Shown here: positions 1,843 to 64,000 of the stretch, piece after piece
How positions within the stretch are numbered: the first letter of the stretch is position 1
How the letters are laid out: each line of letters begins with the position of its first letter
Assembly (NCBI GenBank): GCA_025403435.1
Contig: CM046343.1
Location: 33,328,930-33,392,929 of the forward strand
Source of the DNA: Artocarpus heterophyllus
Lineage: Eukaryota > Streptophyta > Magnoliopsida > Rosales > Moraceae
Direction: 5' to 3'
DNA: 64,000 nucleotides
The notes under the pieces: model-generated
What the model was told of the DNA's origin: nothing
Seen by the model: the letters and a program-made list of their open reading frames with translations, nothing else
The model's database searches: none
Position numbers and translations under genes: made by a program

Positions 1843-1847
1843 GTTCG
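1843..1847. repeat. Target-site duplication GTTCG, left copy
   Basis: GTTCG immediately precedes the TG of the solo LTR and is repeated exactly at 3882-3886 after its terminal CA. Confidence 0.9.
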
Positions 1848-3881
1848 TGTTAGACATGTATGCTCTAAGGAGTAAAAATGTAATACGTTTTTGGAGACAT
1901 TTTTATCAATAAAGAATTTATTCATTTATATATACCAAATATTGTCCTCTTTACGTTCATATTTGTTGAATGTATGATAAGCAAACAGTAGTCTGAGACT
2001 GTCAGTCCAAACCTTAAGAATTGGGCATATGATGGGATGATTATGCGGAAGACACAATTCTTAGGGTGACGGTCTAAAACATATGATCCGCAATCGAGGG
2101 AATAAAATTGGGTGCTTTATTCATGTAAAGATTGTTATGTTGTCTTTATCCCTTTTGGGAGATGGTTTGTCTTGACCATCGGAGTTGGACTCCATGAATA
2201 GAAACATTGGCATGTTGTCAAAGGTGACGATGTGTTGGATCGGGACATAAAGTGAATTGATTTGGATTAATAATTCTGTCTTGGCAAATCGATTCACTTT
2301 AGACAATCATTTGTATTGTATCTTAATCCTGAGATGAATAATGGGCCCGTTGTCTCGACTTGTGTCTTTTGATGTACCAATGGGTGACTCCCACATTTCT
2401 ATAGTGGCATGCATGCCGGTACGTTGGAGGCATGACTCTTGATAGCGTAGACTTGTTATTCATAGATATGGAATCCATAGCTCCTCTTTAGGAGTAATGA
2501 TATCCTCTTATATGCGTTGTCTTGTAATTGAAAAACTAGAGCGCTCAATTATTTGGATACATAGGTGTAACCGAGTGGTATACTATTTTTGGATGGTAAG
2601 TTTTCTAATGGTGAGACAATGGAACGTAAGATAAAAATAATCGGGAAGGTAAGACAGAATTTGTCCTTAAGCCGATTATGGATGATCATATGGGGATGCG
2701 ATACACTATGATATGTCATGGAGACTTAGCTACACGAGCTTCGTAATTCTATAAAGTTCGAGAGTGCAGCTCCAAGCTTTTAGTGGAGTAGCGTTGGAGT
2801 TGATAATTGTGAAATGTATATCTGGGATATTGAGTTTCATAATTATCATGAGCTTGAACTTTATAGGTCCATTTTGGTCCCCTTTGCTAGCTCACAAAAT
2901 CCTGTAACGACACGACGTGCTTTTCCAATAATTGGTGACTTATGTCGGATTTATCAGATTGGTTTAAAATTTATAAGAATCAAATAATTCATGTCTGTTT
3001 ATCGGTTGAATTAATTATGTAAGAAAATTAGTTCAAGATGAACTTGTTGAATTATTGTGTTCAGGTAATTCTTGTCTGTTTATCGGTTGTTTTAATTTTG
3101 GACAATTAGAACAAGATAAACTTGTAGAATTATTGTGAATTGATTTATTTTCTTAGAGATTATCTCGATAAAGTTTGTTTTGATCAGATATCTTTTCTAT
3201 TGGGCTATTTGAATCAAAACTGAGACTTTATCCTTTAGAATCTCGGGTGAAAAATAAAAGATTCGTGAAGATTTTTTCCCGGCAGTTCGGCCTGTCGGAT
3301 GACGTGTTCGGCCTGCCGAACTGGCCTGTTCGGCCTGCCTATCAGAAAGTTTGGCCTGCCGACCGACGACAGTTAAGATTACGCATTTTCACGTGGATCT
3401 TATCAGATATTGATCCGAACTTGATTCTGTTTCGATTTTTTTGAGACCTAATCTGATATGGACTGACCCTAGGACCAATAGGTATAAAAAGGGAGTGAGT
3501 CTAATGATTTACTTAGATCAATTTGAGAGATTAAGAGTGATACTCTTCGAGTGAGCATCTGAAAACTCCCTGAGAGCTTTTGTTCACAAATCACGAACAC
3601 TAGCTTTGGGTTCTCTCTGTTGGTTGGAAAGAGAGTCACCGGTGGAAGAGCTGCACGTGTGAGCCCACACTCACTCCGGTTGTGGATAGAGAATAGCAAA
3701 GAAGACCAGTTGGTTGAGGCTCTTTTGGAACGTTACTTCTCTACACAGGTCGCGGAGGTTCTTCGGCACACTGAGGTTAGTAAGATCTGTTTAATTTATA
3801 CATATAACATGTCAAACTTGTGTTTTGGAAAATACTCTGACGAAAATTTTTAAAATTCCGTTGCGCACTTTGTTTCCAACA
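1848..3881 (+). mobile_element. Solo LTR (family A, copy 1), complete with target-site duplication
   Basis: A 2034-bp LTR beginning TGTTAGACATG and ending TTTCCAACA (5'-TGTT...AACA-3'). It is flanked by a perfect 5-bp direct repeat GTTCG at 1843-1847 and 3882-3886. No PBS, polypurine tract or second LTR lies next to it, so it is a solo LTR left by LTR-LTR recombination. A TATA box (TATAAAA) lies at 3483-3489, so U3 is about 1.6 kb. Several copies of the motif TTCGGCCTG(C/T)CG lie at 3285-3365. A second copy of the same LTR spans 52524-63587, split by a later insertion. Small ORFs inside are not genes. Confidence 0.92.
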
Positions 3882-32730: not shown

Positions 32731-35318
32731 ATGACCATAACAAGAATTGGGTCTGACGAAAAACAATCGAAATCCACAAACAACCCTTCAACGAGCAGTT
32801 CCATGAGAGTTATCGTCCCTCTCCAAGGCGTCGTTCAAGGCAGGGGAGGTCTCGTCCTCGGTTCTCTCATCCCTTGCGCTCTTTACTACTTCCTCCAGCT
32901 CTTCCTCAAACGACGTCGTCACAACTCTCCCTCTCCTCCTCCGCCGCCGCAATTCTCGGATTCTCCGCCGACGCCGCCGGTTCTTCCGAGGACCCTTTCT
33001 CGGACGCTCCTCTCTCCCAGGGGATACGGTGGGCCCGCTCACGTGTCGGGCCGGGTAGGCTCCATTTTGAAGGGAGGAGATTCTCCTTATTTTGTTGGGT
33101 TGAGGAAGGTCGAGGATGATCCGTACGACGAGGTTGGTAATCCGGATGGAGTTGTTCAGCTTGGCTTGGCCGAAAACAAGGTGGTATTTTTTATTTTTTT
33201 TTAAATTCAAGTTTGGTTTTTGTAAGCGCGTGCGTGTTTACTTCTTCTTTTTTTTGGGTTTTAATGGGTTTTTCTTTCTTTCTTTTTTTTTTTTTTAGTT
33301 GTCGTTGGACTTGGTAAGAGATTGGCTTGTGGAGAATGCTAGGAATGCTATGTTGGGTGGAGGAGGAGAAAGGAACGTTCGGGAGCTGAGCATAAGTGGG
33401 ATTGCTAGTTATCAGCCTTTTGATGGATTAATGGATTTGAAAATGGTATGCTAAAAATGTTAAACTTTGTGTAATGTAACTTTTCACATTGATGTTATAT
33501 GTTTTATATTTCTTGTTTTTGCCTAAATGAGTAATTTAAGTAAAACTCAAGCCTCCCTGTTCTGTGGCTTAAAGTTAAAGGAGTTGTGGGAGTGAAAAAC
33601 TTGTTTTATGTGGCTTTCTTTTGTTGTTGTCATACATGCTGGCTAGAAAAAAATTCAGTTTCATTAGAGGTCATGTTCATGAAAATGTCCAAGAATTCGA
33701 AAATGTCAAGATTTGTCATGGGAGTGTAGTTTCTGTGCGTCATTTTGACCCCATTGGGTTAATGAACTGGTATGGTGTGGGTTTGTTGTGAAATTATGTA
33801 TCTTGTCAAGCACCTTATGTCTATCTCAATTTTTAGTGGATTTTTATAAGTTAAAAGTATGCTTATATCTCCTGACTTAAGTAGACGGGGTTATAAGTGT
33901 TAGTTCTTAATGATAGAGTAAGAATCAGTGTTCCATTATATAATGGATTCATTCTAGATTGGAGAATAGTTATTTGAAGAAAATGACACAATTAATTAAG
34001 AGTGATTAGAGCTTCTGTTTTCCAATTCGTGCTTCCATTCACAACTTGCCTCCCGTCTGGCGGCATTATAGTTCTCTCTGGCTAAGGACTAGTCTTCGAT
34101 GGCATGGTGAAGTTGATTTTTGGCATTACGTATGCATTTACACATATACTAAATGAAGTTGATTATTTATTTTTTTCCTTTTTCAGTTGTAATTTTTTCT
34201 TGCTGTGCAGGCTGTATCGAATTTCATGTCTCAAGTTATGGGAAATTCAGTCTCCTTCAACCCCTCGCAAATTGTATTAACAGCTGGTGCATCGTCTGCC
34301 ATTGAAATGCTGAGCTTCTGCCTAGCAGATAGTGGAAACGCGTATCTTGTCCCTACACCATGTTGCCCAAGGTAGTAGTCACCAATCTCTCAATTTCCAA
34401 GATGTTTATGCAGGTTACCGGCTATGCTTTGAGAAAACTAAAGTCTCAAACTTTTTACGCAGTCTGGACAGGGATGTAAAATGGAGAACCGGAGTGGAGA
34501 TAATACCCGTTCCATGCCGTAGTACAGACAATTTCAGTTTAAGCATAACTGCTCTGGACCTTGCATTCAACCAGTCAAAAAAACGCGGCCTAAAAGTCCA
34601 GGGAATCATAATTTCAAACCCTTCAAACCCTGTTGGCAATCTCCTCAGCCGAGAAACACTCTACAGCCTGCTAGACTTTGCCAGAGAGAAAAATATACAC
34701 ATAATATCAAACGAAATATTTGCTGGCTCCACTCGTGGAAGCGTGGAGTTCATAAGCATGGCAGAAATCATCGACTCTGAGGATCTTGACTGCGACAGGG
34801 TTCATATAGTTTACGGTCTATCAAAAGATCTCTCTATTCCGGGATTTAGGGTGGGTGTAATCTACTCCTTCAATGAGAATGTTTTGGCTGCTGCTAAAAA
34901 GTTGACAAGGTTCTCATCCATATCGGCTCCATCTCAACGGTTGCTTATATCTATGCTTTCGGATGCAAAATTTGTTCAGAGATTCATTGAAACAAATGGG
35001 GAGAGGCTAAGAAGAATGTACCACAAATTCGTCGAGGGACTGGAGCAATTGGGCATAGAATGCACAAAGAGCAGTGGTGGTTTCTATTGTTGGTCAGACA
35101 TGAGTAGATTTATCTATTCTTACAGTGAGAAAGGTGAGCTTGAGCTGTGGGAAAGGCTTTTGAGTGTAGCCAAGGTCAATGTAACTCCTGGATCTTGTTG
35201 CCATTGTATTGAACCTGGATGGTTCCGTTTGTGTTTTGCTAACTTGGCCGAAAGCGACATTCCCGTTGTCATGGAACGAATTCGGAGAATATCTGTGCCA
35301 TGTAAATCTCAAAGTTGA
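32731..35318 (+). CDS. ACS10: ACS10/ACS12-type aminotransferase (ACC synthase-like), four exons
   Basis: Exons 32731-33180, 33299-33445, 34211-34371 and 34463-35318 give 537 residues. The N-terminus [17 protein letters not shown] plus a membrane-like segment (about 41-59) and a Pro-rich linker are characteristic of ACS10/ACS12. Relatives of that group act as amino-acid (Asp/aromatic) transaminases rather than ACC synthases. The fold-type I PLP domain shows NPSNPVGN (305-312), the Schiff-base lysine Lys374 in YGLSKDLS and the substrate-side Arg in [10 protein letters not shown]. Three usual active-site positions differ: Cys-Cys (250-251) stands where TPYYPGFDRD has Tyr-Tyr, and Asn336 and Phe339 (SNEIF) stand where SDEIY supplies the PLP-binding Asp and Tyr. 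A CT-rich 5' leader lies at 32570-32610. It is convergent with the LRR kinase gene, 984 bp away. Confidence 0.9.
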
Positions 35319-36302: not shown

Positions 36303-39052
36303 TTATTGTGATTCTGATCCATTTCTAATGGACTCAAGAACCTGAACAACCTCAGCCATGCTTGGCCTTCTTGAAGGAACCTCAGATGTACATATAAGCC
36401 CCAACTTCATTACCTGAATAAGCTCATTCTCTACAATACCCCTCAAGTTTCTATCAAAACAATCTGAAGCAGAACCACTTTCCAACAATGCCCTCACATA
36501 TTCACACAAGACCACAACCTCACTAGCCCTTGGACTCTCAACTGGCTTCCTACCTGTGACCAACTCCAAAAGAATCACGCCGAAGCTATAAACATCACAC
36601 TTCTCGCTCAACCTCAAGCCTTGCGCCAACTCCGGCGCAACATACCCCACAGCATTGTGGAATTTGGTTAGGCCATAGTTGTCCAAGATGGGAAGAAACT
36701 TTCCCAAACCATAATCAGACAACTTGGCATTGTAAGTCTCGTCTAAGAGAATGTTAGTGGACTTAATGTTGAGATGGAGGATCGGAGGCCTACAATCATG
36801 GTGAAGGTAGGCAAGGGCCCTTGCCGTTCCAAGAGCGATCTTGAACCTCCTTGACCAATCCAATTCACTATTGCCGCCACCGGTGCTGGTGCCTGGATAG
36901 TGAAGACCGTGAAGATTGTCATACAAGTTCCCATTCGGGATAAACTCGGATAGAATCAACTGCATTGTGGAAGACCAATAATAACCTTGAAAGGCTACTA
37001 AATTCGGATGCCGTAGATTGCCTAGCCGTCCGATTTCCTGCTCAAATTCGTCTTGGTTCCTGATCCTTCCCAAAGTCTCGAGCTTCTTCACCGCAATGGA
37101 GACTCCACCTTCAAATGTTGTCTTGTAGACAGTCCCAATTGATCCACCACCTATCATACACTCCTTGTCAAGCAAGGCCTTTGTGCCAGACTCCCAGTCT
37201 TCATACCTTGAAGGCAAGCTTTTGCTGAAAAGAACCAGTTTTCCAATTATGACATTCGAATCAGTTGAAGCAAGTGGGGTGCTCTCAACAACCATTGGCT
37301 CCTCATCTTTCTTCCTCCTTCGGGCAACAATGTTCATGATAGACACTAGACACACCCCTGTAAGGATCACTGCAGCAGCAACAATTGCAATAATGGCAGA
37401 CACAGTTAATGGATGTTTTTTCTTCGGACTTGAAGTCGTTGTAGCATTGCCCATGCAAGGCTTGTCCAAAGGGTTGCCGCAGAGCAAGGGATTGCCGGAA
37501 AATGCAGAGATGCCAAATTGCTGAATGGTTAAAGGAATGGTGCCTGAGAGATTATTAGAGGAAAGGTTAAGATCGGTTAAATTTTTTAGGTTCCCAAGAG
37601 AAGGAGGGATTGGCCCTGAAAGTGAATTTTGTGACAAATCAAGAATTTGCAGTTTTGACAAGTTTCCAATGGTTGGTGGGATGCTTCCATTCAGATGATT
37701 TCGATGTAGGTTGAGGATTTCCAGGTTGGCCATGTTGTAAAGAGTCTTGGGAATTTCCCCCTCTAAGGCATTGCCAGAAACATCCCTGCAGAAACAACAC
37801 ACGTTAGGAATTCTTGTAAGTTGGAAACCATATATATCAATATGAACTCAAAATCATGTACTAGATTATTTTGGACTCACAGCTCGCGAAGAAGTTTGCT
37901 ATTGGTTATATCAGCAGGTATTTCTCCAACAAGGTTGAGATTGTGGAAATCCAAAACCTGAAGCACTGGAATGCTGGAAAACCCCTTTGGAATCACACCA
38001 CTTATAGAGTTATTACCCAACTGAATCACCACCAGCCACTCTAGTGTGGCAAGCTCAGTTGGGATACTCCCACTAAGCCTGTTAAACCCCAAGTTTAAAA
38101 CTTTCAGACTTCTACAGTTTGCAATTCCCGCAGGGACTTCCCCATCAAAACGGTTTCTTGAAGCATCAAAAAACTCCATTTTGTCACCACAAATTGTCAT
38201 ATCAGGAAGCCTCCCAGTAAAACCATTGTATGACACATTAAGGCGACTGAGATTTACAGATCCAAGAACCCCAAAAGGCGCTAAACCGGAGAAAAAATTG
38301 CTACCAAGATCCAACACTTTCAAGCTCTGGCATGCTGAGAGCTGCTTCTCAACACTCCCTGATAATGCATTGCTTCTTAATGAAACATAATCAAGCCTTG
38401 GAATATCACACAGCCTCGAAGGAATCCCACCACTCAGCTTGTTGAAAGAGAAATCGAACCCTTCAAGGTTGAAGCAATTGGACAAAGAATCCGGGACTGG
38501 ACCAGAAAGCAAGTTGTGAGACAAAGAAACAAACCTGGTTTTGTAACAATGCTTGAACAAAGATGATGGTATCTCGCCAATAAAACCATTCCTTGACAAA
38601 TCTAGAAGCCTAATGTTCGGCAAATCACCGATAAACCCTGGGATTGGCCCAGATAAGGCATTCGAGCTCAGATTGATCTTCCACAAGGTTTTGATATCGC
38701 CATATTCTTGTGGGATATTGCCACTAAACAGGTTTCCAAAAAGTGTTAGAATCCTCAAAGACTTTAGCCCTGACAAAGCAGGAGAAAGTGTTCCACTCAA
38801 ACTAGTGTTCCACAAAACAATCTTCTCCACAAACCCATCAGAGTTACACAAAACACCATTATAATCTACACAAGGATTTTTACTCAAAACCCATGAGCCC
38901 AAGCTATTGTAAGGATCATTTGTGACATTCCCTTTGAATTGGAGCAGAATCTCTCTATTATCAGTTGCAGGCAAAACACAATTCAATAATAGCCCAAGGA
39001 AGCACAAAAGAAGAGCATGATGACAAGAACTAAAATGATAGAATTTTCTCAT
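36303..39052 (-). CDS. LRR receptor-like kinase of the At1g12460/At1g62950 type, two exons
   Basis: Exons 37881-39052 and 36303-37785 are joined at a phase-2 GT-AG intron and give 884 residues, close to the length I recall for the Arabidopsis relatives. ATG at 39052 (MRKFYHFSS) is chosen because it starts a clear signal peptide (1-30); the longer open frame upstream has no ATG. Then come an LRRNT Cys pair (NPCVDYNGVLC), about 17 LRRs, a transmembrane helix (about 518-543) followed by RRRKK, and a kinase domain with glycine loop IGGGSIGTVYK and VAIK lysine IAVKK. The catalytic loop reads HLNIKSTNILL, with Asn where active kinases have Asp, and DFG is replaced by DYG. It is therefore probably a weak or inactive kinase acting as a plasma-membrane signalling scaffold. 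Ligand unknown. Confidence 0.93.
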
Positions 39053-50591: not shown

Positions 50592-52010
50592 TTATTTTAA
50601 TCATTATTTTAGTTTTTTAACGGCTTGATTTATGATTGTTCATGTTAAAATTTACAATGCACGACACAAAACTTCTCCCATAACAAGTGAAACTATTAAA
50701 ATGTTAATCCAATGACTAAAATAACATGCTTGATCAATAGTATAGAATTATCTTCACACCATAAAGATTCTCTTGTTTTTATAAAATAATATCTTTTTCA
50801 TCCTATGATTAAAAACCCACTGTTAATAAAATAATTGAATTTAATATACATTTCATTATTTGGATCGTGATCTAATGTTTTGTGAGTTATAGAGTTTGTG
50901 TTTTGTGAGTTGTAGAGCTTTAACTTATATGATCAAATAGTGGTTTTTTTTATGCATGTCACAACAACAACAATGGGGATTTTATAGTGATTACTTTGGG
51001 AAATAGCATAAAATGACCCTCATAATAACAATAACATGTGCTTCACGGGACTTTTTAGGCAAAAAAATTTGTGAAATTGAGTCGTCAGGAGTTGGCATAT
51101 TGGAGATTGACACGTGGAATTTGAGCTGGCAAAAACCATTCGCGTGCGAATAGGAGAAAAAATTATTAGATTGGTCGGCGGGTCCAGCTTTAGGCAGGCT
51201 TGTGAAAGGTTGGATTTTGGTAATTATGAGGTAATCAATTTTTTGAAAGAATATGAGGTAATCATTTTATTCCCGTATTCCTTTAAAAAATTATTTCCTC
51301 GTTTTTTAAAGCAAAAAAAAAAAAAAAATCCATAACAAATTGCTACCGGATTTTCTTTAAAAAGAAAATGCAGTTGGCGTTTATTTTGTTCAAAATTATA
51401 ACTGTCTAATTTAAATTGACAAATTCAAACGGATTAAAATTGGAGGCTGTGAAGGAGATGCTTTCAAATTTATAACTCTCTGGACTCCAATGCAAAGGCT
51501 AATGTTGATATTATATTTAACATTAAAAAGTAAAAATATCATATTAAGTGTGTTGTTCTTTTGGGAAAAAAACACATGCTCATTTTATAAATAAAAAAAT
51601 TATAAGTATGATCGAACTGAGAACCACAGTTTCAAAATCTCTCAATTTCATTAGATCAAAAAATCTTAAATAGCGAATTGATTTGACAAGAGTTAAAAAA
51701 ACCAAAATGATGAATTGACAATTGTTTGTTTTTTTTTACTGAAGATTTTATATACCCAAAATGTATCAAAATCATACAAGTAAAAAAAACAAAGACGTAC
51801 CGAATATGGATGCAGAGAATATTTTACTTTTTGCTTTGCTCGCTTTTTGTGAGTAGGGTAAAGAAAGATCACTAGCAATGGAAAATGATAAGACAACATT
51901 TCATCCAAAAGAAAAAAAACTAAAAACAACAATAATCAAAAGAGCTATTATAAATTAAAAGAAGACATATTCCGAAATTAAAAAAATACAGGAAGCCCCA
52001 AGAATCATCC
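50592..52010. other. Gene-free AT-rich stretch
   Basis: No supported gene. Short open frames (51114-51335, 51693-51932) have non-ATG starts or simple-sequence content. Confidence 0.5.
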
Positions 52011-52518
52011 TGTAAGGCCCCTGAATTTTAAAGTAGGATTAGTTATGTTAAGTTTAATTATTAAGTGCGTCAGTATAAATTTTATTGTTAATTTTAGTCA
52101 TTTAAAGATTTTGTTGCATTTTTCATATTTAAAATTTGATTTTTAGTGTTAAAATATCAAATGACATTTTTACTTCACATTTTCCTCATATTTACGAAAA
52201 TGTCATTGGGGCCTTTTTTTTTTTTTTTCTTTTCCCTTTCCTCTTTCATTTTCACGCTCTCTCTCTCTCTTTCTTTCTCTCGCGCACAGCTCCCTCTCTC
52301 TTTCTTTCTTTCTCTAACAAATTTTGATTTGAAGCTTCATTCTCATAGATTTGAGCAAGGATTGAAGTTCAATTATCAAATTTTTCATCCAAAAACACCA
52401 TTAAAGGTTAGCTTTCTCTTTTTCCTAAAATTTTAAAGTTTTAAATTTCTATTTTTCAAATTTTCTTTGATTGTTGAATATGAACTTCAGTGAGCTTAGT
52501 TAACGTTTAATCTAAGTT
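52011..52518 (+). mobile_element. Outer LTR, left part (continues at 63593)
   Basis: Begins TGTAAGGCCCCTGAA, a typical plant Gypsy LTR start, and holds a long CT-rich leader (52215-52320). It is cut by solo LTR copy 2 at 52519 and appears to resume at 63593. Its far end lies beyond the window, so it may be an LTR or the start of a whole element. Confidence 0.5.
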
Positions 52519-52523
52519 CATGG
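52519..52523. repeat. Target-site duplication CATGG, left copy for solo LTR copy 2
   Basis: CATGG here and CATAG at 63588-63592 differ at one position. Confidence 0.65.
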
Positions 52524-53218
52524 TGTTAGACATGTATGCCATAAGAAGTAAAAATGTAATACGTTTTTGGAGACATTTTTATCAATAAAGAATTTATTTA
52601 TTTATATATACCAAATCTTGTCCTCTTTACGTTCATATTTGTTGAATGTATGATAAGCAAACAGTAATCTGAGACTGTCAGTCTAAACCTTAAGAATTGG
52701 GCATATGATGGACTGATTATGCGGAAGACACGATTCTTAAGGTGACGGTCTAAAACATATGATCCGCGATCGAGGGAATAAAGTTGGGCGCTTTATTCAT
52801 GTAAAGATTGTTATGTTGTCTATATCCCGTTTGGGAGATGGTTTGTCTTGATCATCGGAGTTGGACTCCGTGAATAGAAACATTGGCACGTTGTCATACG
52901 TGACGATGTGTTGGATCGGGACATAAAGTGAATTGATTTGGATTAATAATTCTGTCTTGGCAAATCGATTCACTTTAGACAGTCATTTGTATTGTATCTT
53001 AATCCTAAGATGAATAGTGGGCCCGTTGTCTCGACTTGTGTCTTTTGATGTACCAATGGGTGACTCCCACATCTCTATAGTGGTATGCATGCTGGTACGT
53101 TGGAGGCATGACTCTTGATAGCGTAGACTTGTTATTCATAGATATGGAATCCATAGCTCATCTTTAAGAGTAATGATATCCTCTTATATGCGTTGTCCTG
53201 TAATTGAAAAACTGGAGC
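52524..53218 (+). mobile_element. Solo LTR (family A, copy 2), left part
   Basis: Starts TGTTAGACATG and follows 1848-2555 closely. At 53218 it is interrupted by the 53219-62268 retrotransposon; the remainder is 62274-63587. Without the insertion it is about 2.01 kb against 2.03 kb for copy 1, which shows the empty site as AAAAACTAGAGCGCTCAA. Confidence 0.92.
53214..53218. repeat. Target-site duplication GGAGC, left copy
   Basis: Directly precedes TGTGACACCC of the 5' LTR and is repeated exactly at 62269-62273. The uninterrupted copy-1 LTR has AGAGC once at this point. Confidence 0.95.
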
Positions 53219-53272
53219 TGTGACACCCGTTATTCTCCTAAGGGTATTAAGGTAATTAGATTAATTACCTAG

Positions 53273-53283
53273 TATATATATAA
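53273..53283 (+). promoter_or_regulatory. Probable LTR TATA box
   Basis: TATATATATAA about 55 bp into the LTR, followed within 40 bp by CT-rich sequence. It is also present in the 3' LTR near 59928. If it is the true promoter, U3 is very short and R-U5 is over 2.2 kb. Inferred only. Confidence 0.45.
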
Positions 53284-54097
53284 AAAAAATCAGAAAATCT
53301 CTCATAATTCGAAACTCTCTCTCTCTATACTTTCTCTCTCTAAAAAATTCTCTCTCTCTCCTCAAAGATCGTTTGAGATTTCGGCATCCGTTTTCGACAC
53401 CTCCCGCACCAATGGAAAGCTCTCGACGAGCTGAGTCCAACGAGGTGCCGCGCCGCCCAAAACGCCGCCGGAGGAGACCACACGCGCCGCCCAAAGTGGC
53501 GGCAAAACCCATTTCTTTCCGACGAGATATCTTCGCCGTCCGACGTCCGATCGACGTGATTCTTGTTCCTACACGACCACCGTGATGAGAGGAACAAAAC
53601 CCACCCTTGGTGGCAGCTCAACAACCGCCGGATTGCTCCGCCCGTCTATTGCCGCCGTGCACCGCCGCCCCCATGGTGGAACTCCGCCTTGCCGGAGGAG
53701 GTGACTGACACCACCCCTCCCAATGAGTTCAGAGGATCAAGGGGAGTAAAACCCCTCGATCAATTGCACGGAAGGAGCCGGTTTCGCTGGAGAACGGCCA
53801 ACGCCGCCGTCAACCGTCGCGGGAGTCTCCGTTTTGGCTCTTCCCAGCCACGTTTCTTCAAATTGGATGAGGGGAAATGCTCATAGGAGGATGGGTAGCA
53901 AAAGCCCTCAGCCAATTTCAGGTTTCCATCGTCGGAGAATCAAGATCGGAGCTCATCCATTTCTACCGACGTTGTACTTCACGACCCGCTATGTTAGAGG
54001 CAGAATTGAGTGAAATTGACCCCGCCATTGGACTCAGAAGGGTCGATTTAGGGGGGGTAGGCCCGAGCCCAGCTGCCAACGGACCCCGATTGACGCC

Positions 54098-54164
54098 GGT
54101 CAACGCCGGTCAAAGTCGGTCAACGCCGGTCAACGGTGGTCAACGCCGGTCAACGGCCGGTCAA
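54098..54164 (-). promoter_or_regulatory. Tandem array of seven GGTCAA units (W-box core TTGACC), 5' LTR
   Basis: GGTCAA starts at 54098, 54108, 54118, 54128, 54138, 54148 and 54159, that is, a 10-bp period with one 11-bp step. The complement TTGACC contains the W-box core TTGAC bound by WRKY factors. The unit CGCCGGTCAA is a minisatellite, so function is inferred from motif and helical spacing only. Confidence 0.55.
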
Positions 54165-55622
54165 AGGCCAAAATGGGATTTTGTGATCCGGACCTCCGAT
54201 CGAAGATCCGAGACCGTCTCCTGACTCGTTTCGATGCTCTGGATGCAATGGTGACCTCCGTTCGAGCAAATTCCACTCCGATGAAAATCATCCGGTACCG
54301 ACTGCATGCGAATCGAGGCGATTCAAACAGCAGCATCGGAGTCCAGAATGACGTTTTCAAGAATGTATGATCTCCAGGAAGCATTCCTAGCCATTCATAG
54401 TCGCTCGAGGAGCACTACAGAGGATGCTTCATAGATACAGCGAGATACAACTGGATCTGCTTTGCTTGGAGTTCAAGATCAAGGGAGTATGGAGTTAACG
54501 TTAATTGATTCCAGGATTAAGAGACTGTTGATAAGCTTGAAAGGTAGGGATTCTATTACTCATCTTTTGTAAGGTTTTTATAGAATTAAAATTGATTGTT
54601 TTGCCGCAATATATATATCTATGTTGAACTGATATTATATGAGTATCACATATGAAACTATGACATGGACTCGTCTTGTATTGTACGGCGAGGAACATAA
54701 TGAATTTACACATGTTATAAATTGAGAAGCATGGTTAGGAAAACTAACTCTATTTAATAATGATTCAATATAGAGAAATTGTAAGACATGAAGAGGGCGA
54801 CGGTTACGTCCTTGGGCATGAATACCCTAAAAGGTAAAATAGGGGGAAGGCGATGACGCTTCCTTGGGTTGAAAGTCCCAGAACACACTGTACAGGAATC
54901 GATTTGGTGAGGACTCGGGGCTTGATGTCCCCCTCACCGGAATACCCTTGGAATGTTTATAGGGTGATCAAGTGCGCCCATTTGGGTCTCGATGAGTTGA
55001 GTGATACTCAATTTAACATGGATACCTAGGAACAATGATGATTGGTAATATTTGTATAAATGTGTAATTATGACACTTGGTAATGATTAACTACGGTATC
55101 CATAAGATGTGATCATAATATACCTCATAATCTGGAATATGATGTGACTTACTAACCATGCAGATTTTAATGTGGTAATGATAAAAACCTAAAGGTGAGT
55201 AATGGCTTTCTCTACTGAGCATAGTGTTGCTCATTCCCTTATGTTTATATCTTTTCAGGACTCACTAAGTGTGAGGTGGCTACGAGAAATATAGTTGAGG
55301 AAGTGATGTAACTATATTACATTGGGACTGCTTCAATCGTTGAGAATGTTCTTCATGATAATGTAAGCATCAATTGTTACTTCTGTGACTGTATTATAAT
55401 GTGTTGAGGGTTAAAATGATGATGACAACAGTTTATATTATTAAATTTAAGGTGCTACATTAAAACTGTGGTTTATTTGTCGTTTATATTTTTATTTTTG
55501 AGTTGAGAGTTTTCATTTAAGTCCCGGGCAAATTTTATTTTTAAGGTTTTACTTTTATTATTTATTTTTATTTTATCTCATTAAAAACTGTTAACCCCCA
55601 TATAGGGGCGTTACAAAATTTT

Positions 55623-55634
55623 TGGTATCAGAGC
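55623..55634 (+). other. Primer-binding site (initiator Met tRNA type)
   Basis: TGGTATCAGAGC begins 8 bp after the 5' LTR end; it matches the common plant iMet-type PBS. Confidence 0.92.
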
Positions 55635-57103
55635 CTAGGTTCGGTTAACCTAGGGAGTGTAGCACCACTTTAAAAAATATATTTTTGAGATGGTTTTGAA
55701 GCTGAATTTTTATTGTCATCATCAAAATGAACCTTCACATTGATTTATACAGTCTAGAAGGATGTAACATGGAAAGGCCATAGAATGAAAATATCAATAG
55801 TTATATGAGTACAATAATTTTATAGAAGGAAAGTATTAATAGTTATAAGGGAATGATAATTATATGGAATGAGTTTATAAGTAGATTGCTTATGAGAGAT
55901 TCGTATAATATTTGGATCTATAAGCATATCTAATTCGTATAAACGATGAGAAATTCGTATAGATACGAGGATTTAAGAGCCTTTTGTCTCGTGAAAAACA
56001 ATAAGAAATATAAGGCTTGATTTATTGATTTTAAAGTTTGGCATAGATATGCCAAATTTTTCGTAATTGATTCAAACCTAAGTAATGATTATGTGTGGAT
56101 TCGATGGAGCACATAAGTGTCAATAACTTTTCTTAAAAGTTCTATTTATTTGAGGAATATGATATAAGTTGGGAATCATGGTATTGAATCTTGAGAGAGA
56201 TAAATGTTAGACTTTTGGTCTGTTGAGACTGTGTAAAGTCTAGAATGCATGAATCTCAAAATTGGAATATTTCGTTACGTACATTGTATTTAAGTGTATC
56301 AGTGAATCTTTTGGTTACCTAAGGTTTTGTTATATGAGGAAATTATATATTGTATGAGTAGAATTGTGGGGATTGTAGATGTTCTTAAGTAGTAACATCA
56401 AGTGTCTTTGTTTGTTGATATGGTCTACGTTGAAAGACGTAAATTGTATTGATTTCAAGGTTAGTCGCATTCTAAACCCTTGGTAGTAATGATGATGAAT
56501 CCATTGATAGATGTTAAGTATTATGAATAACATATGGGTGTATGCATTGTTCTATAAGGTTTTGATTAAAACAAAATTATTTGAGTTGCTGGAAGATTAT
56601 GTTGTTATGAAATGATTTTAAATATCATTCAGGAAGATCCTTGTTGTCATTAAATTAGATTTGTTGTTTATAGTTAACTTTATCTATAGTGGGCTTTGAA
56701 TTGGGTTTAAGATTTATACAAATTGGTTTTCAATTTTATGTTTGTTATTTAACTCGTTCTAAATGTGTTAAGGCCCGAAACAACCTGACCATTTTCAACT
56801 AAGAACATTTGGGCCTAGTTTAAATCTTAAATCAGTTTGATTCACACTGTCTCTCCCACGTGGTTTCTATACGTGTCATATACAGTGGTTTAATCATTGT
56901 TTACATATACGTTTACTGTGCATAGGAGCTTATTTCTCCGAGTTCACTTTTTCTCTCTTAATTTGTTATTTTCTCTCTAAATCGCAAATCCTCTTCTTTT
57001 TCATTAAAAATTCTTCTTTTTCTCTAAAAGAAGAAGGAATTCTAGGATTCTGCAATTTACTATCTTAATTTTTCCTTTCTATTTACTCTTCTTTCATCTC
57101 ATC
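55635..57103. other. Non-coding 5' internal region of the element
   Basis: AT-rich and closed in all frames over any gag-like length. The last 250 bp (56850-57100) include a CACGTG-type G-box near 56858 and CT-rich sequence resembling a plant 5' UTR, which may drive or lead the ORF at 57104. Confidence 0.5.
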
Positions 57104-57625
57104 ATGGACCCAAAGTACCAACACCTGAGAAAGTATTTCCCATCACTCTCCCAAAAGATTCTCAGAAAGAAATACAAGGCTAGAATTACTCGGTTGTGGA
57201 TTCTTATGCGTTTTGGTATCCCTTGTGATGTGAGAATGTTAATAGAGGGGAAAATCCGTCCGAGTGACTTTAGTCAAGATGTCGGTTTACCAGGAACGGG
57301 TACCAGTCGTAGTGCAATGAAAAGAAGAGCTCGTGCCATCGTGGTCACTTGTAACAAATGTGGAAGACAAAATTGTAACGGTAAATGTACTTCACCTGGT
57401 TATATGTCTACGAATAGAGAGGATAAAATAAGGTTTTGTAGGGATGGACTTTCAAAGGAGAACTTGGATAGCATCCATCCTCCTCTCCACGGTCACCCTA
57501 GTGGATATGTTCAAGGAGCTATTTTTAAACTCTGGCCTAAATTTTATACAGAAAGACAACGCCTCAGGAATATGGTATTTCTAGATCCTGTTTGTCAAGC
57601 CATAAGAAAACTGGATGGGGAATAA
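57104..57625 (+). CDS. Basic zinc-finger ORF in the retrotransposon, resembling viral nucleic-acid-binding proteins
   Basis: 173 codons, ATG in context ATCATGG. An N-terminal basic/hydrophobic part (1-60) is followed by an Arg/Lys cluster (KRRARA, 73-78) and a Cys motif C83-x2-C86-x4-C91-x3-C95, then a charged tail with WPKFYTERQRLR. The order basic cluster - short hydrophobic - four-Cys finger - Pro-Gly - acidic patch resembles the cysteine-rich nucleic-acid-binding proteins of carlavirus-like plant RNA viruses. It does not have the CCHC spacing of retroviral gag. That comparison is pattern-based and unproven. The frame is intact and intronless, 643 bp upstream of the LOG-like ORF. Possible roles are RNA binding or packaging for the element, or a transcription-factor-like effect on the host. 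It could instead be a diverged gag-like protein. Confidence 0.55.
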   Translation: MDPKYQHLRKYFPSLSQKILRKKYKARITRLWILMRFGIPCDVRMLIEGKIRPSDFSQDVGLPGTGTSRSAMKRRARAIVVTCNKCGRQNCNGKCTSPGYMSTNREDKIRFCRDGLSKENLDSIHPPLHGHPSGYVQGAIFKLWPKFYTERQRLRNMVFLDPVCQAIRKLDGE

Positions 57626-58268
57626 GTCATCGCTCTATAAAGGTTATTTAGTCTTTACTTGTTTGAAGCAGTTTTAGCTGATGTTCAACAGTTTGTGTTT
57701 TTCTTTTACTCAGAATATTTGCTTTTGTGTTTGAAATAATTGTGATTATTAGATTGATACAGTAAGTGTTAATATCTTATTTAATTTATGATTTTCTCAA
57801 ATATATATATAATAAAATATATTATCTTATCAGACACGTCACATACGGTACAGTAATATGTTTGAATTTTGAAAAGCTTATCCAGATATTCCAAGATTTG
57901 TGTCTCAAATTTCAAAAGTTCTACAGTATTTGTCGTTTATATTAAATTTCTAGACTTGGTGTATATTTGTCAAAAAGTCTACAGTTGTGTCATGAGGGTC
58001 TTCTGTCAAATTGTTCTCAATTGTCAAAAGTTATACAATTAGAGTCTAATCTTTTTCAAAAAGTGAATCAGATTTTCTGTAAACTATCAATCACCTTATC
58101 TTACTTTCTTATCCGCACAAGATTTTGTTTAAATCTTTGGATTACCTTTTCATTACCTACTCGTCTATCTCTTTAGCCCTTTTTGTGTATTTCTCATCTT
58201 TAAAAACTCATGTAGAACCCGAAGTCTAAGTGGAGCAGACATTAAGCAACCACTTCTATAAACCAAAT
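57626..58268. other. Spacer between the two cargo ORFs
   Basis: 643 bp of AT-rich sequence. Short open frames (for example 57967-58176) lack an ATG or similarity. An in-frame extension of the LOG-like ORF reaches GTG at 58230, but ATG 58269 is the natural plant start. Confidence 0.5.
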
Positions 58269-58919
58269 ATGTCTACCTCCCAGTCCACGAAGAAAATAAA
58301 GAATGTCTGTGTCTTTTGTGGTTCCAGCCTTGGAAAAGATAAAGCTTATTTAGAAGCTGCAAATCACTTAGGGCAAGTCCTAGCACACAAGAAGATTAAC
58401 ATAATCTATGGGGGTGGTAGTATAAAAATGATGGTAAATATGGCACTAGCAGCTAGGTCTAGCGACGCTACTGATGTAAGAATTTGGCCTCATATTCCAG
58501 TTGAAGGAAACCTTTGTAAGGAAGCCATAGGTAAGGGAGAAGGAGTCAGGAGTATCCCTAAAAATTTTAAAGACATAATCTATAATTCTGATGCTTTTAT
58601 AGCATTACCTGGTGGTCTAGGTACTCTTGAGGAAATATTTATAGTTGCTTGTGGGCAATTGTTGGGCTTTTATTCCAAACCTTTGGGACTGCTGAACGTA
58701 AAGGGTTTTTATGACGGTCTTTTGAAATTTCTAGATTACGCTGTGGAAGAAAACATCACTACAGAATCGGAGAGACAAATCTTTGTCACTGCTTCAACAG
58801 CTGAGGAATTGATAGATAAAATGCAAATCATACATCCAGAATCCGACACTGCAACATCCAAGCTTGAATGGGAAAGGGAAAGCCGGGAGCGGCCAATTGA
58901 TTTGAATCTCCATCTGTAA
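58269..58919 (+). CDS. LOG-like: LOG-family protein (cytokinin riboside 5'-monophosphate phosphoribohydrolase-like), retrotransposon cargo
   Basis: 216 residues, the full length of plant LOG enzymes, which release active cytokinin bases from nucleotide precursors in the cytosol. Visible landmarks: VCVFCGSS (13-20), IIYGGGSI (45-52), SDAFIALPGGLGTLEEIF (107-124, the PGGxGTxxE signature), KPLGLLNVKGFYDGLL (137-152) and the family's C-terminal SKLEWERES. Compared without gaps with the usual plant consensus, GGGSIGLMG has become GGGSIKMMV and the MHQRK loop has become IPKNF. The conserved catalytic/phosphate-binding Arg is thus Asn99, while Glu121/122 remain. Plant LOG genes normally have several introns; this copy has none, which implies capture through an mRNA. 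It may be inactive as a cytokinin enzyme, could act by pairing with host LOG dimers, or may use another substrate. Confidence 0.9.
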   Translation: MSTSQSTKKIKNVCVFCGSSLGKDKAYLEAANHLGQVLAHKKINIIYGGGSIKMMVNMALAARSSDATDVRIWPHIPVEGNLCKEAIGKGEGVRSIPKNFKDIIYNSDAFIALPGGLGTLEEIFIVACGQLLGFYSKPLGLLNVKGFYDGLLKFLDYAVEENITTESERQIFVTASTAEELIDKMQIIHPESDTATSKLEWERESRERPIDLNLHL

Positions 58920-59856
58920 TCTTTTTGTTTTATCTTTGGCATGTAGGCATGTGTGTCCGTATTTCGTGTGTTACGAATAACCGTTTGCCTTGTATTCTGT
59001 GTTTCTTGTGGTACGTCGTTGTTAAATCTTTTAGATTCATTGAGCCTAATGCCGGGATGGCTGGATACGGAGTACTTGATGCTCTCGAAACGCATTCTTC
59101 TTAAGGTCCGATCTTTTGTTTATCGATGTTTTTGTATCCTCTAAGCATGCATGATATGGATAGCTGGTATACGGAGTGCCTTGTACTCTCGAAACGTATC
59201 CGTATCATGTTTGTAATGTGTAATATTCTGTTAATATTATGTGGAAGTACCAGAGTCAGTTATGGGGATATTCCATATGAAATATGAGTATATTATTTGG
59301 ATTGAATGTTTGTGTCATGAGGATAGCTGTTTAATGAAAAATATGTCGGGTATGTTTGCAACCAGAGATTCCGTTTAATATCTCTATGAATAAGTTTAAT
59401 GTATGGTTTTGAATATAAGTGTTTGTGATATATGTTTTATGATTATGTTTTAGTTTATTAGTTGAGGTATGAAATCAAATATATTTGACTTTTCCTTACT
59501 CAAAAAGGAAAAGGAACCTAAAGATGAAGTATATAAAATTTCTCTGGCAATCTCCTTAAATGTGATTGTAAATCACAGTCCATGGACAATGAAGGACTGG
59601 AATCATGATATGGTCAATATGTATGCCTGATCAGATTCCTAGACTATTATACGGTGTTATAAGTTGAAACTTGTCAGAAATACTCTCATTGAGGGATCTA
59701 GGAGTAAGATTTATTATGCAAGTAAATAAGTGGAGTTACGATAACTTAAATTTGGAGGACAAAGAACATTAACGGTTTAGACTCAGAATTGGAATCATAG
59801 TGGAATCATAATTTTTACTAGTATTACTAGAATTGAAATTTCGAGGACGAAATTTC
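58920..59856. other. 3' internal non-coding region of the element
   Basis: Closed in all frames over gene length. It contains the spaced repeat above and ends with CGAGGACGAAATTTCTTT before the polypurine tract. Confidence 0.55.
59065..59200 (+). repeat. Two spaced copies of an ATACGGAGT...CTCTCGAAACG repeat
   Basis: GGATACGGAGTACTTGATGC leading to CTCTCGAAACG (59064-59092) recurs as ATACGGAGTGCCTTGTACTC leading to CGAAACG (59169-59197). The unit is about 28 bp and the copies are about 105 bp apart in the 3' internal region. Confidence 0.7.
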
Positions 59857-59858
59857 TT

Positions 59859-59870
59859 TAAGGGGGGTAG
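59859..59870 (+). other. Polypurine tract
   Basis: AAGGGGGGTAG immediately before AGC and the TG of the 3' LTR, the expected plus-strand primer. The preceding GAGGACGAAAT motif is shared by many plant Gypsy chromovirus-related elements. Confidence 0.88.
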
Positions 59871-59873
59871 AGC

Positions 59874-62268
59874 TGTGACACCCGTTATTCTCCTAAGGGT
59901 ATTAAGGTAATTAGATTAATTACCTAGTATATATATAAAAAAAATCAGAAAATCTCTCATAATTCGAAACTCTCTCTCTCTACTTTCTCTCTCTAAAAAA
60001 TTCTCTCTCTCTCCTCAAAGATCGTTTGAGATTTCGGCATCCGTTTTCGACACCTCCCGCACCAATGGAAAGCTCTCGACGAGCTGAGTCCAACGAGGTG
60101 CCGCGCCGCCCAAAACGCCACCGGAGGAGACCACACGCGCCGCCCAAAGTGGCGGCAAAACCCATTTCTTTCCGACGAGATATCTTCGCCGTCCGACGTC
60201 CGATCGACGTGATTCTTATTCCTACACGACCACCGTGATGAGAGGAACAAAACCCACCCTTGGTGGCAGCTCAACAACCGCCGGATTGCTCCGCCCGTCT
60301 ATTGCCGCCGTGCACCGCCGCCCCCATGGTGGAACTCCGCCTTGCCGGAGGAGGTGACTGACACCACCCCTCCCAATGAGTTCAGAGGATCAAGGGGAGT
60401 AAAACCCCTCGATCAATTGCACGGAAGGAGCCGGTTTCACCGGAGAACGGCCAACGCCGCCGTCAACCGCCGCGGGAGTCTCCGTTTTGGCTCTTCCCAG
60501 CCACGTTTCTTCAAATTGGATGAGGGGAAATGCTCATAGGAGGATGGGTAGCAAAAGCCCTCAGCCAATTTCAGGTTTCCATCGTCGGAGAATCAAGATC
60601 GGAGCTCATCCATTTCTACCGACGTTGTACTTCACGACCCGCTATGTTAGAGGCAGAATTGAGTGAAATTGACCCCGCCATTGGACTCAGAAGGGTCGAT
60701 TTAGGGGGAGTAGGCCCGAGCCCAGCTGCCAACGGACCCCGATTGACGCCGGTCAACGCCGGTCAAAGTCGGTCAACGCCGGTCAACGGTGGTCAACGCC
60801 GGTCAACGGCCGGTCAAAGGCCAAAATGGGATTTTGTGATCCGGACCTCCGATCGAAGATCCGAGACCGCCTCCTGACTCGTTTCGATGCTCTGGATGCA
60901 ATGGTGACGTCCGTTCGAGCAAATTCCACTCCGATGAAAATCATCCGGTACCGACTGCACGCGAATCGAGGCGATTCAAACAGCAGCATCGGAGTCCAGA
61001 ATGACGTTTTCAAGAATGTATGATCTCCAGGAAGCATTCCTAGCCGTTCATAGTCGCTCGAGGAGCACTACAGAGGATGCTTCATAGATACAGCGAGATA
61101 CAACTAGATCTGCTTTGCTTGGAGTTCAAGATCAAGGGAGTATGGAGCTAACGTTAATTGATTCCAGGATTAAGAGACTGTTGATAAGCTTGAAAGGTAG
61201 GGATTCTATTACTCATCTTTTGTAAGGTTTTTATAGATTTAAAATTGATTGTTTTGCCGCAATATATATATCTATGTTGAACTGATATTATATGAGTATC
61301 ACATATGAAACTATGACATGGACTCGTCTTGTATTGTACGGCGAGGAACATAATGAATTTACACATGTTATAAATTGAGAAGCATGGTTAGGAAAACTAA
61401 CTCTATTTAATAATGATTCAATATAGAGAAATTGTAAGACATGAAGAGGGCGACGGTTACGTCCTTGGGCATGAATACCCTAAAAGGTAAAATAGGGGGA
61501 AGGCGATGACGCTTCCTTGGGTTGAAAGTCCTAGAACACACTGTACAGGAATCGATTTGGTGAGGACTCGGGGCTTGATGTCCCCCTCACCGGAACACCC
61601 TTGGAATGTTTATAGGGTGATCAAGTGCGCCCATTTGGGTCTCGATGAGTTGAGTGATACTCAATTTAACATGGATACCTAGGAACAATGATGATTGGTA
61701 ATATTTGTATAAATGTGTAATTATGACACTTGGTAATGATTAACTACGGTATCCATAAGATGTGATCATAATACACCTCATAATCTGGAATATGATGTGA
61801 CTTACTAACCATGCAGATTTTAATGTGGTAATGATAAAAACCTAAAGGTGAGTAATGGCTTTCTCTACTGAGCATAGTGTTGCTCATTCCCTTATGTTTA
61901 TATCTTTTCAGGACTCACTAAGTGTGAGGTGGCTACGAGAAATATAGTTGAGGAAGTGATGTAACTATATTACATTGGGACTGCTTCAATCGTTGAGAAT
62001 GTTCTTCATGATAATGTAAGCATCAATTGTTACTTCTGTGACTGTATTATAATGTGTTGAGGGTTAAAATGATGATGACAACAGTTTATATTATTAAATT
62101 TAAGGTGCTACATTAAAACTGTGGTTTATTTGTCGTTTATATTTTTATTTTTGAGTTGAGAGTTTTCATTTAAGTCCCGGGTAAATTTTATTTTTAAGGT
62201 TTTACTTTTATTATTTATTTTTATTTTATCTCATTAAAAACTGTTAACCCCCATATAGGGGCGTTACA
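59874..62268 (+). mobile_element. 3' LTR of the cargo element
   Basis: 2395 bp, nearly identical to 53219-55615, differing by about 17 substitutions and a 2-bp indel in the CT-rich stretch. It ends GGGGCGTTACA, followed by the GGAGC duplication. The GGTCAA array is retained at 60751-60817 with the same spacing. Confidence 0.95.
60751..60817 (-). promoter_or_regulatory. GGTCAA array in the 3' LTR
   Basis: Seven GGTCAA units with the same 10/11-bp spacing as in the 5' LTR. Confidence 0.55.
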
Positions 62269-62273
62269 GGAGC
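62269..62273. repeat. Target-site duplication GGAGC, right copy
   Basis: Exact match to 53214-53218; the solo LTR then continues with GCTCAAC. Confidence 0.95.
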
Positions 62274-63587
62274 GCTCAACTCTTTGGATACATAAGTGTA
62301 ACCGAATGGTATACTTTCTTTGGATGGTAAGTTTTCTAATGGTGAGACAATGGAACGTAAGATAAAAATAATCAGGAAGGTAAGACAGAACTTGTCCTTA
62401 AGCCGATTATGGATGATCATATAGGGATACGATATACCATGATATGTCATGGAGACTTAGCTACACGAGCTTCGTAATTCTATAAAGCTCGAGAGTGCAG
62501 CTCCAAGCTTTTAGTGGAGTAGCGTTGGAGTTGATAATTGTGAAATGTATATCTGAGATATTGGGTTTCATAATTATCATGAGCTTGAACTTTATAGGTC
62601 CATTTTGGTCTCCTTTGCTAGCTCTCAAAATCCTGTAACGACACGGCATGCTTTTCCAATAATTGGTGACTTATATCGGATTTATCAGATTGGTTTAAAA
62701 TTTGTAAGAATCAAATAATTCATGTCTGTTTATCGGTTAAATTAATTTTGTAAGAAATTAGTTCAAGATAAACTTGTTGAATTATTGCGATCAGATAATT
62801 CTTGTCTGTTTATCGATTGTTTTAATTTTGGACAAATTAAAACAAGATAAACTTGTAGAATTATTGTGAATTGATTTATTTTCGTAGAGATTATCTTGAT
62901 AAAGTTTGTTTTGATCAGATAACTTCTTTATTGGGTTATTTGAATCAAAATTAAGACTTTATCCTTTAGAATCTCAGGTGGAAAATAAAAGATTCGCGGA
63001 GATTTTTTCTCTAGAGTTCGGCCTGCCGGATGACGTGTTCGGCCTGCCGATTAGAACGTTTGGCCTGCCGATCAACGAGAGATAAGATTACACGCTTTCA
63101 CGCAGATCTTATCAGATATTGATCCGAACTTGATTCTGTTTCGAGTTTTTGAGACCTAATCTGATATGGACTGACCCCAAGACCAATAGGTATAAAAGGG
63201 AGTGAGTCTCATGATTTACTCAGATCAGTCGAGTGATTAAGAGTGATACTCTTCTAGTGAGCATCTGAAAACTCCTTGAGAGCTTTTGTTCATAAATCAC
63301 GAACACTAGCTTTGGGTTCTCTCTATTGGTTGGAAGGAGAGTCACCGGTGGAAGAGCTGTACGTGTGAGCCCACACTTACTCTGGTTGTGGATAGAGAAT
63401 AGCAAAGAAGACCAGTTGGTTGAGGCTCTTCTGGAACGTTACTTCTCTACACAGGTTGCAGAGGTTCTTCGGCACACTGAGGTTAGTAAGATCTGTCTAA
63501 TTTATACATATAACATGTCAAACTTGTGTTTTAGAAATTACTCTGATGGAAAATTTTAAAATTCCGCTGCGCACTCTGTTTCCAACA
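62274..63587 (+). mobile_element. Solo LTR (family A, copy 2), right part
   Basis: Continues copy 2 from 53218 and follows 2561-3881 of copy 1. It holds a TATA box at 63191-63197 and ends TTTCCAACA. It has fewer TTCGGCCTG motifs than copy 1 (63017-63070) because of a short deletion. Confidence 0.92.
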
Positions 63588-63592
63588 CATAG

Positions 63593-64000
63593 GACTTGTT
63601 TTACTATGAATCTAAGCTTTATTTGAACAAAAATTTGTTTGATCAAATTTTGATAGTTTTCTTTAATTTTCAAATCAAAGGTGAAATTGAGTATAAATTT
63701 AGGGGAAATGATTTAAATTTATTCTACTATGATTTTTTATGATTTCTATATAATTTTTATGCTATGAGATTGAGAAAGCAGGTTTTGATTTGAATTTTTG
63801 AGCTTGGGAAGGTCGAGACTCGAAGTCTCGGGTCCTCATATTTTGCCAGTTTGGCAGGCTAAACTTGATCTTCAGCATGCCAGATTCAAGAAGTTTGACA
63901 GTCGGATTCATATCTTCGGCAAGCCGAACTATAGCAGTTCGGCAGGCCAGTCTGGATGTTCAAAAGGCTGAACCGTGCAGTTCGGCAGGCTGGACTAGGA
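63593..64000 (+). mobile_element. Outer LTR, right part (runs off the window)
   Basis: Resumes the LTR beginning at 52011. It holds several GTTCGGCAGGC / GGCAAGCCGAAC motifs at 63840-64000. No gene. Its end and any internal region lie beyond the window. Confidence 0.45.

Follow-up and report, generated by a model that had tools for sequence, protein, structure and literature searches.

The 64,000-nucleotide stretch of Artocarpus heterophyllus contig CM046343.1 analysed here (hereafter the window) contains, at 53219-62268, a complete long terminal repeat (LTR) retrotransposon in which we found no gag-pol. The two intact open reading frames (ORFs) of its interior encode CRP, a probable relative of carlavirus-type nucleic-acid-binding proteins, and a member of the LOG family. 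We favour, by a little over even odds, the view that CRP and LOG form an old host-manipulation module of two genes, kept by selection on young, amplifying, non-autonomous LTR elements; how the module would act is our proposal, set out below. An earlier sequence-only reading of the same DNA had described a young LTR element that lacks gag-pol and carries an intact, intronless LOG-family ORF; the outer borders that it gave are exact, and each part of this description holds (LTRs, target-site duplication, primer binding site, polypurine tract, little-diverged LTRs and an empty site).

The interior (55616-59873, 4258 bp) has only two ORFs of more than 130 codons, those of CRP and LOG (Table 1). 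No trace of gag-pol was found by Pfam in ten stop-free pieces (nine from the interior and one from an LTR, a subset of all such pieces; best E=0.29), and when the gag and protease-like ORFs of a related locus, L048, were used as tblastn queries, nothing in the 64-kb window matched; the element is therefore non-autonomous. Its LTRs have TG...CA ends and differ by 15 transitions and 2 transversions over 2395 aligned sites (Kimura two-parameter distance, K2P, 0.0071), which, if plants accumulate between 2.5e-9 and 1.3e-8 substitutions per site and year, dates the insertion to ~0.3 to 1.4 million years ago. The window also holds a natural empty site: 1847-3794 is a paralogue of both flanks that is free of the insert and is joined at ...ACTAGAGCGCTC, near 2539-2542. 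The flanks themselves (52523-53218 and 62270-63500) duplicate 1847-3794 with 95.5% and 91.7% identity. An Rfam scan of 52000-64000 returned nothing at gathering thresholds. We take the primer binding site to be of the initiator tRNA-Met type. According to the available part of PMC6317226, copia elements and most chromoviruses prime from such sites, and non-chromoviruses such as Athila do not. The element thus shares the tRNA-Met site of chromoviruses (e.g., Tekay), a feature that copia has too and that is not decisive, and it differs from Athila, which pairs a non-Met site with gag, in having a Met-type site and no gag that we could find.

Searches of the 985 Mb of the element's own genome revealed that it belongs to a large family. 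Only the best copies were scored, so the following counts are lower bounds. With the interior as query, all 40 scored places (the best 40 of 2676 candidates) are at least 98% identical; with LOG, all 150 scored places, the window included (the best 150 of 6117 candidates), encode an identical protein with no stop. Bearing in mind that interior and LOG are both multi-copy in the same genome, we reject a one-off retrocopy. For closer study we took 20 copies, the window's among them, which were picked by similarity over the first 985 interior bases and not by their ORFs. A target-site duplication was found in 17 of these; LTR divergence (K) ranges from 0 to 0.0125, four pairs having no substitution at all (for L018 and L024 the LTR comparison spans just 250-410 bp). 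Among the 19 other copies, 18 have an intact CRP and 18 an intact LOG, the exceptions being a 1-base deletion in CRP of L017 and an ACG in place of the ATG in LOG of L013. The family is large, young and amplifying. Its LTR is modular: approximately LTR positions 72-1258 are swapped for unrelated A+T-rich sequence in other copies (L012, L016 and L021), and outside this exchangeable ~1.2 kb segment the remainder of the LTR (the ends and the 3' half) is ~97-98% identical between copy classes.

The case for selection begins with 82 distinct coding variants among the 19 other copies, none of which is a premature stop: 20 synonymous and 18 non-synonymous in CRP, 16 and 28 in LOG. Taken over all variants in the young family, the ratio of non-synonymous to synonymous rates (dN/dS) for CRP is ~0.31 (p=0.0003). 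Variants common to several copies number 13 synonymous versus 4 non-synonymous in CRP (dN/dS 0.11, p=2e-5) and 5 versus 5 in LOG (dN/dS 0.36, p=0.10); private variants look neutral (0.69 for CRP, 0.76 for LOG). Comparison with L045, an element of an older subfamily, gives NG86 dN/dS values of 0.16 (CRP) and 0.26 (LOG). A single one of 59 pairwise indel events falls inside the ORFs, for a nominal p of ~1e-7 in which events shared by descent are counted repeatedly. In neutral simulations run without indels, none of 1000 runs left the LOG frame stop-free at any of 49, 46 and 40% identity; for CRP the count of stop-free runs per 1000 was 7 at 60%, 1 at 50% and 0 at 45% identity. Chance fails to account for the open frames. 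These comparisons indicate purifying selection that is strong for CRP and, across subfamilies, weaker for LOG; they bear out the expectations of the sequence-only reading that the cargo would be multi-copy, open in other copies and held open by selection.

The same data bear on an alternative, already disfavoured, in which CRP and LOG are passengers: old captured genes that hitch-hike, and whose conservation merely reflects the recent common origin of the copies. The copies are indeed very young, private variants look neutral, LOG shows no significant constraint within the young family, and older copies decay. We nevertheless consider this account improbable, because neutrality would not be expected to leave the frames free of stops at 45-60% protein identity, dN/dS is low across older subfamilies for both genes, indels avoid the ORFs, the gene pair recurs beside gag-protease (see below), and 61 aligned CRP members retain seven invariant columns.

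A direct search with CRP found 15 homologues, and a profile 856 at E up to 10, of which 120 are among the matches listed; every organism named among these is a plant (Hibiscus, Xanthoceras, Populus, Acer, Rhamnella and Orobanche). At E up to 0.01, PF05515 matches 52 of the 61 aligned members (best 1e-8) and PF01623 matches 51 (best 6e-8). Of eight relatives scanned singly, six pass the PF01623 cut-off, six that of PF05515, and all eight at least one, with a match that covers up to ~90 residues; no match to either family was obtained with four reversed or shuffled controls. The sequence-only reading had spoken of a zinc-finger gene: a four-cysteine finger is present, but on this evidence CRP is better described as a putative relative of carlavirus-type nucleic-acid-binding proteins (Viral_NABP / Carla_C4). 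No CRP relatives were found in IMG/VR, and the best match of the CRP family among solved structures has E=0.11. The combination of a basic motif and a zinc finger in a nucleic-acid-binding family, on an element in which gag was not found, would also suit a nucleocapsid or RNA-chaperone substitute that packages element RNA into the particles of a partner, rather than a silencing suppressor. We think this unlikely: CRP adjoins gag in two loci, L048 and L049, where such a substitute would be redundant, and its finger differs from the gag zinc knuckle, which has the CCHC form. As for the viral proteins, silencing suppression has been reported for carlavirus CRPs, and p12 of chrysanthemum virus B is described as a transcription factor that causes hyperplasia; one study saw no suppression of local silencing by p12, which is elsewhere called a weak suppressor (available parts of PMC3689765 and PMC12172455).

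The identity of the second protein is clear from its matches to PF03641 (E=9e-22) and Arabidopsis At2g37210 (2a33; E=2e-43), and the lack of introns makes capture from a host LOG mRNA plausible. The PF03641 fold with its PGGxGTxxE motif is present. The arginine of the LOG MHxRK motif is catalytic; the corresponding segment of the window LOG reads IPKN. Furthermore, the window LOG retains 43 of the 56 sites most conserved among 22 divergent LOG representatives; G53, L54, W129 (here a glycine) and H135 are among the 13 that it has lost. Much of this change is concentrated in codons 51-104. Against L046, these codons have dN 0.55 and dS 0.66 (0.09 and 0.27 in the rest of the gene), and against L047, 0.54 and 0.71 (0.10 and 0.37). 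Since L046 and L047 agree in the block, the change lies on the side of the window family, where a pattern search recovered it, with at least 52 of its 54 residues, in 19 of the 20 copies (it missed L025). A frameshift was rejected as its cause, there being no shifted register; we read the block as a replacement by a diverged segment or as accelerated change.

We conclude that the window LOG has probably lost catalysis, and that the activation of cytokinin proposed in the sequence-only reading is doubtful for the window family, because both the MHxR arginine and the GLMG substrate loop are changed. A functional enzyme that activates cytokinin and so drives division of the cells in which the element is active, with CRP as an accessory, would be in keeping with the retained PGGxGTxxE, with the arginine of 98 of the 106 readable relatives (14 of the 120 listed were unreadable by the pattern), and with the GLMG loop and arginine that L045 and L047 keep in the same genome. 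For the window family itself we rate it as unlikely: the block overwrites GLMG and arginine, tryptophan 129 is lost, the altered protein is common to all 150 scored places, and the score against the NCBIfam LOG equivalog is 85.8 bits versus a 300-bit cut-off (in a library made for bacterial and archaeal annotation).

The LxLxL tail at the C-terminus of this LOG, which we label EAR on our own assumption, includes L214 and L216, both among the 56 most conserved sites. In a tree of 121 LOG sequences, 107 form an LxLxL clade (support 0.99), inside which the window LOG is weakly placed on a very long branch. The 33 of 120 listed relatives that have no strict LxLxL include shorter or differently ending members of this clade, nine sequences of its sister group, six of which carry the name Xanthoceras, and five LOGs of canonical appearance (P0115-P0117, P0119 and P0120). 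Of two IMG/VR searches for LOG relatives, one found none and the other sixteen loci with weak, mostly partial matches.

The gene pair extends beyond the young family. With the LOG relative P0008 as query, all 150 scored places (the best 150 of 5888 candidates) have an uninterrupted LOG match of 50-60% identity to it. Four of these places were examined more closely. CRP and LOG are both open in L045, in the same order as in the window element. The L045 flanking repeats, possibly LTRs (this is uncertain), are only 73-81% alike, and that locus could be kept by the host. None of the three CRP-LOG loci L045, L046 and L047 has a meaningful gag or protease match. A different setting is found in L048, which has gag (PF03732, E=5.5e-9), an ORF without a Pfam match that we recognise as protease-like, an open LOG and a CRP that is broken. 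L049 shows, further upstream and 721 bp ahead of the gag ORF, a PBS-like site, TGGCGCCGTTACCGGGG, which we take to be an Asp/Athila-type primer binding site; in the opposite orientation this locus has another gag-protease-CRP-LOG set, the LOG of which is cut at the locus end and the gag part of which is 58-71% identical. In both gag-protease-CRP-LOG sets the gap from protease to CRP is 0.6 to 1 kb, leaving no room for reverse transcriptase and integrase. Together, L048 and L049 (G000:C28:21256900-21273600) suggest an old pol-less architecture of its own. In the Xanthoceras gene model P0002, a gag-like stretch (41%, E=4e-9) is fused with LOG. As CRP-LOG stands here beside gag-protease and a primer site of another type, the module occurs in two retrotransposon backgrounds. 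P0053 (LOG) and P0149 (CRP) both lie on 8723-base contigs, which suggests linkage and may be chance. A bolder proposal, which we put forward only tentatively, is that the pair is a portable cassette for host manipulation, which combines a silencing suppressor of virus type with a LOG derivative bearing an EAR tag and has been shuffled between unrelated element lineages like viral accessory genes, and that LOG was rebuilt in the heavily amplified window family from a hormone enzyme into a protein that recruits corepressors.

Returning to the selected host-manipulation module, we hypothesize that the element depends on gag and pol supplied by others, which it would use by way of its primer binding site and polypurine tract, and that the CRP and LOG proteins would favour its expression or spread in trans. 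CRP might counter RNA silencing or alter transcription, and LOG might recruit TOPLESS-type corepressors through its LxLxL tail, probably without cytokinin activation in the window family and possibly with it in subfamilies that have an intact active site. Were this so, a virus-type protein and an EAR-tagged LOG under selection in an amplifying family would suggest accessory counter-defence in plant retrotransposons, which is directly testable; it would connect the CRPs of plant RNA viruses with a family of proteins that many plants have, and some of the 'LOG' gene models that plant annotations list in multiple copies may be explained in this way.

Several observations weigh against this view. 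Within the young family, LOG dN/dS is ~0.63 and not significant (p=0.10), and against L046 it is 0.52, a value due to the replaced block; that block could itself mean relaxed constraint. Older copies decay: CRP is frameshifted in L046 and has lost its start in L047, stops occur inside ~50 of the 150 P0008-query LOG places (counted by eye). A Met-type primer binding site is present in L047 and was not found by pattern in L045 or L046. The mobilising partner is hypothetical; the roles of the two proteins are deduced from their sequences; and the EAR assignment depends on a short motif. The window CRP scores 16.3 bits against PF05515 (cut-off 23, E=0.0096), which is at noise level, because the three reversed controls hit a family unrelated to it with E between 6e-4 and 4e-3; the carlavirus-family case therefore rests on the relatives. 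The CX2CX4CX3C spacing of CRP differs from the CX2CX9CX4C of the potato virus H finger, and some carlavirus CRPs failed some suppression tests (both from the available part of PMC3689765).

Table 1. Coordinates of the element and its features in the window
Feature	Position	Strand	Details
Target-site duplication, left	53214..53218	.	GGAGC; adjoins 5' LTR
5' LTR	53219..55615	+	2397 bp; 99.2% identity with 3' LTR
Exchangeable LTR segment	53290..54476	.	mostly G+C-rich
Primer binding site	55623..55634	+	TGGTATCAGAGC; in 20/20 copies examined
ORF1 (CRP)	57104..57625	+	173 aa; putative carlavirus-type nucleic-acid-binding family
Basic motif of CRP	57320..57328	+	KRR, residues 73-75; from alignments
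Zinc-finger-like motif of CRP	57350..57388	+	CX2CX4CX3C (C83, C86, C91, C95); pattern in 103/125 family members
ORF2 (LOG)	58269..58919	+	216 aa; LOG family
Anomalously diverged block of LOG	58419..58580	+	codons 51-104; substrate loop GLMG -> KMMV; MHxR arginine R -> N
Retained motif of LOG	58608..58634	+	PGGLGTLEE, residues 114-122; from alignment
C-terminal tail of LOG	58896..58916	+	IDLNLHL, LxLxL EAR-like; strict LxLxL ending in 87/120 relatives listed
Polypurine tract	59860..59867	+	AAGGGGGG; pattern in 18/20 copies
3' LTR	59874..62268	+	2395 bp
Target-site duplication, right	62269..62273	.	GGAGC

Elsewhere in the window there are ORFs at 36303-39052 and 32731-35318, which we presume to be leucine-rich-repeat receptor-kinase-like and aminotransferase-like.

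Among known systems, LARD and BARE2-like elements have LTRs, a primer binding site and a polypurine tract without a complete gag-pol, and for the most part either code for nothing or retain portions of gag-pol; the window element shares the three structural features with them and differs in its conserved pair of non-gag-pol genes. Two Athila-like elements with LOGL4 similarity were reportedly described by Steinbauerova et al. in 2011. The opinion of the sequence-only reading that no described lineage has this cargo was mistaken as regards LOG: the available part of PMC9289625 describes LOG/YgdH domains in Citrus and Populus LTR elements and cites a 2011 report. Those elements resemble the window element in having an extra LOG-family ORF inside an LTR retrotransposon, and all nine of the entries named Populus in the list of 120 LOG relatives belong to the LxLxL clade. 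On the other hand, the Citrus and Populus consensuses of PMC9289625 were, by the available text, built around reverse transcriptase, whereas the window family has a tRNA-Met primer binding site and no gag-pol that we found. In the available parts of these papers, the terms Carla, PF01623 and viral suppressor are absent from PMC9289625, LOG, LOGL and cytokinin from PMC7264820, and lonely guy, cytokinin and carlavirus from PMC6317226 and PMC11963269; among the records listed by term searches of the open-licence PMC literature, none pointed to a CRP beside the LOG, to the LxLxL ending or to a LOG element devoid of gag-pol.

Like carlavirus CRPs (PF01623, PF05515), ORF1 has a basic motif followed by a four-cysteine finger; unlike them it is longer, has another cysteine spacing and is encoded by a retrotransposon. 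A further parallel is offered by orchid Ty3/Gypsy elements of 25 kb with one extra domain, an AlkB m6A demethylase active in vitro: as in the window element, an enzyme-derived extra ORF is proposed to help against the host (available part of PMC9289625). Set beside these systems, what appears from the sequences to be new is the module of a viral-type CRP and an EAR-tagged LOG on a heavily amplified element without gag-pol, and its presence beside gag-protease as well.

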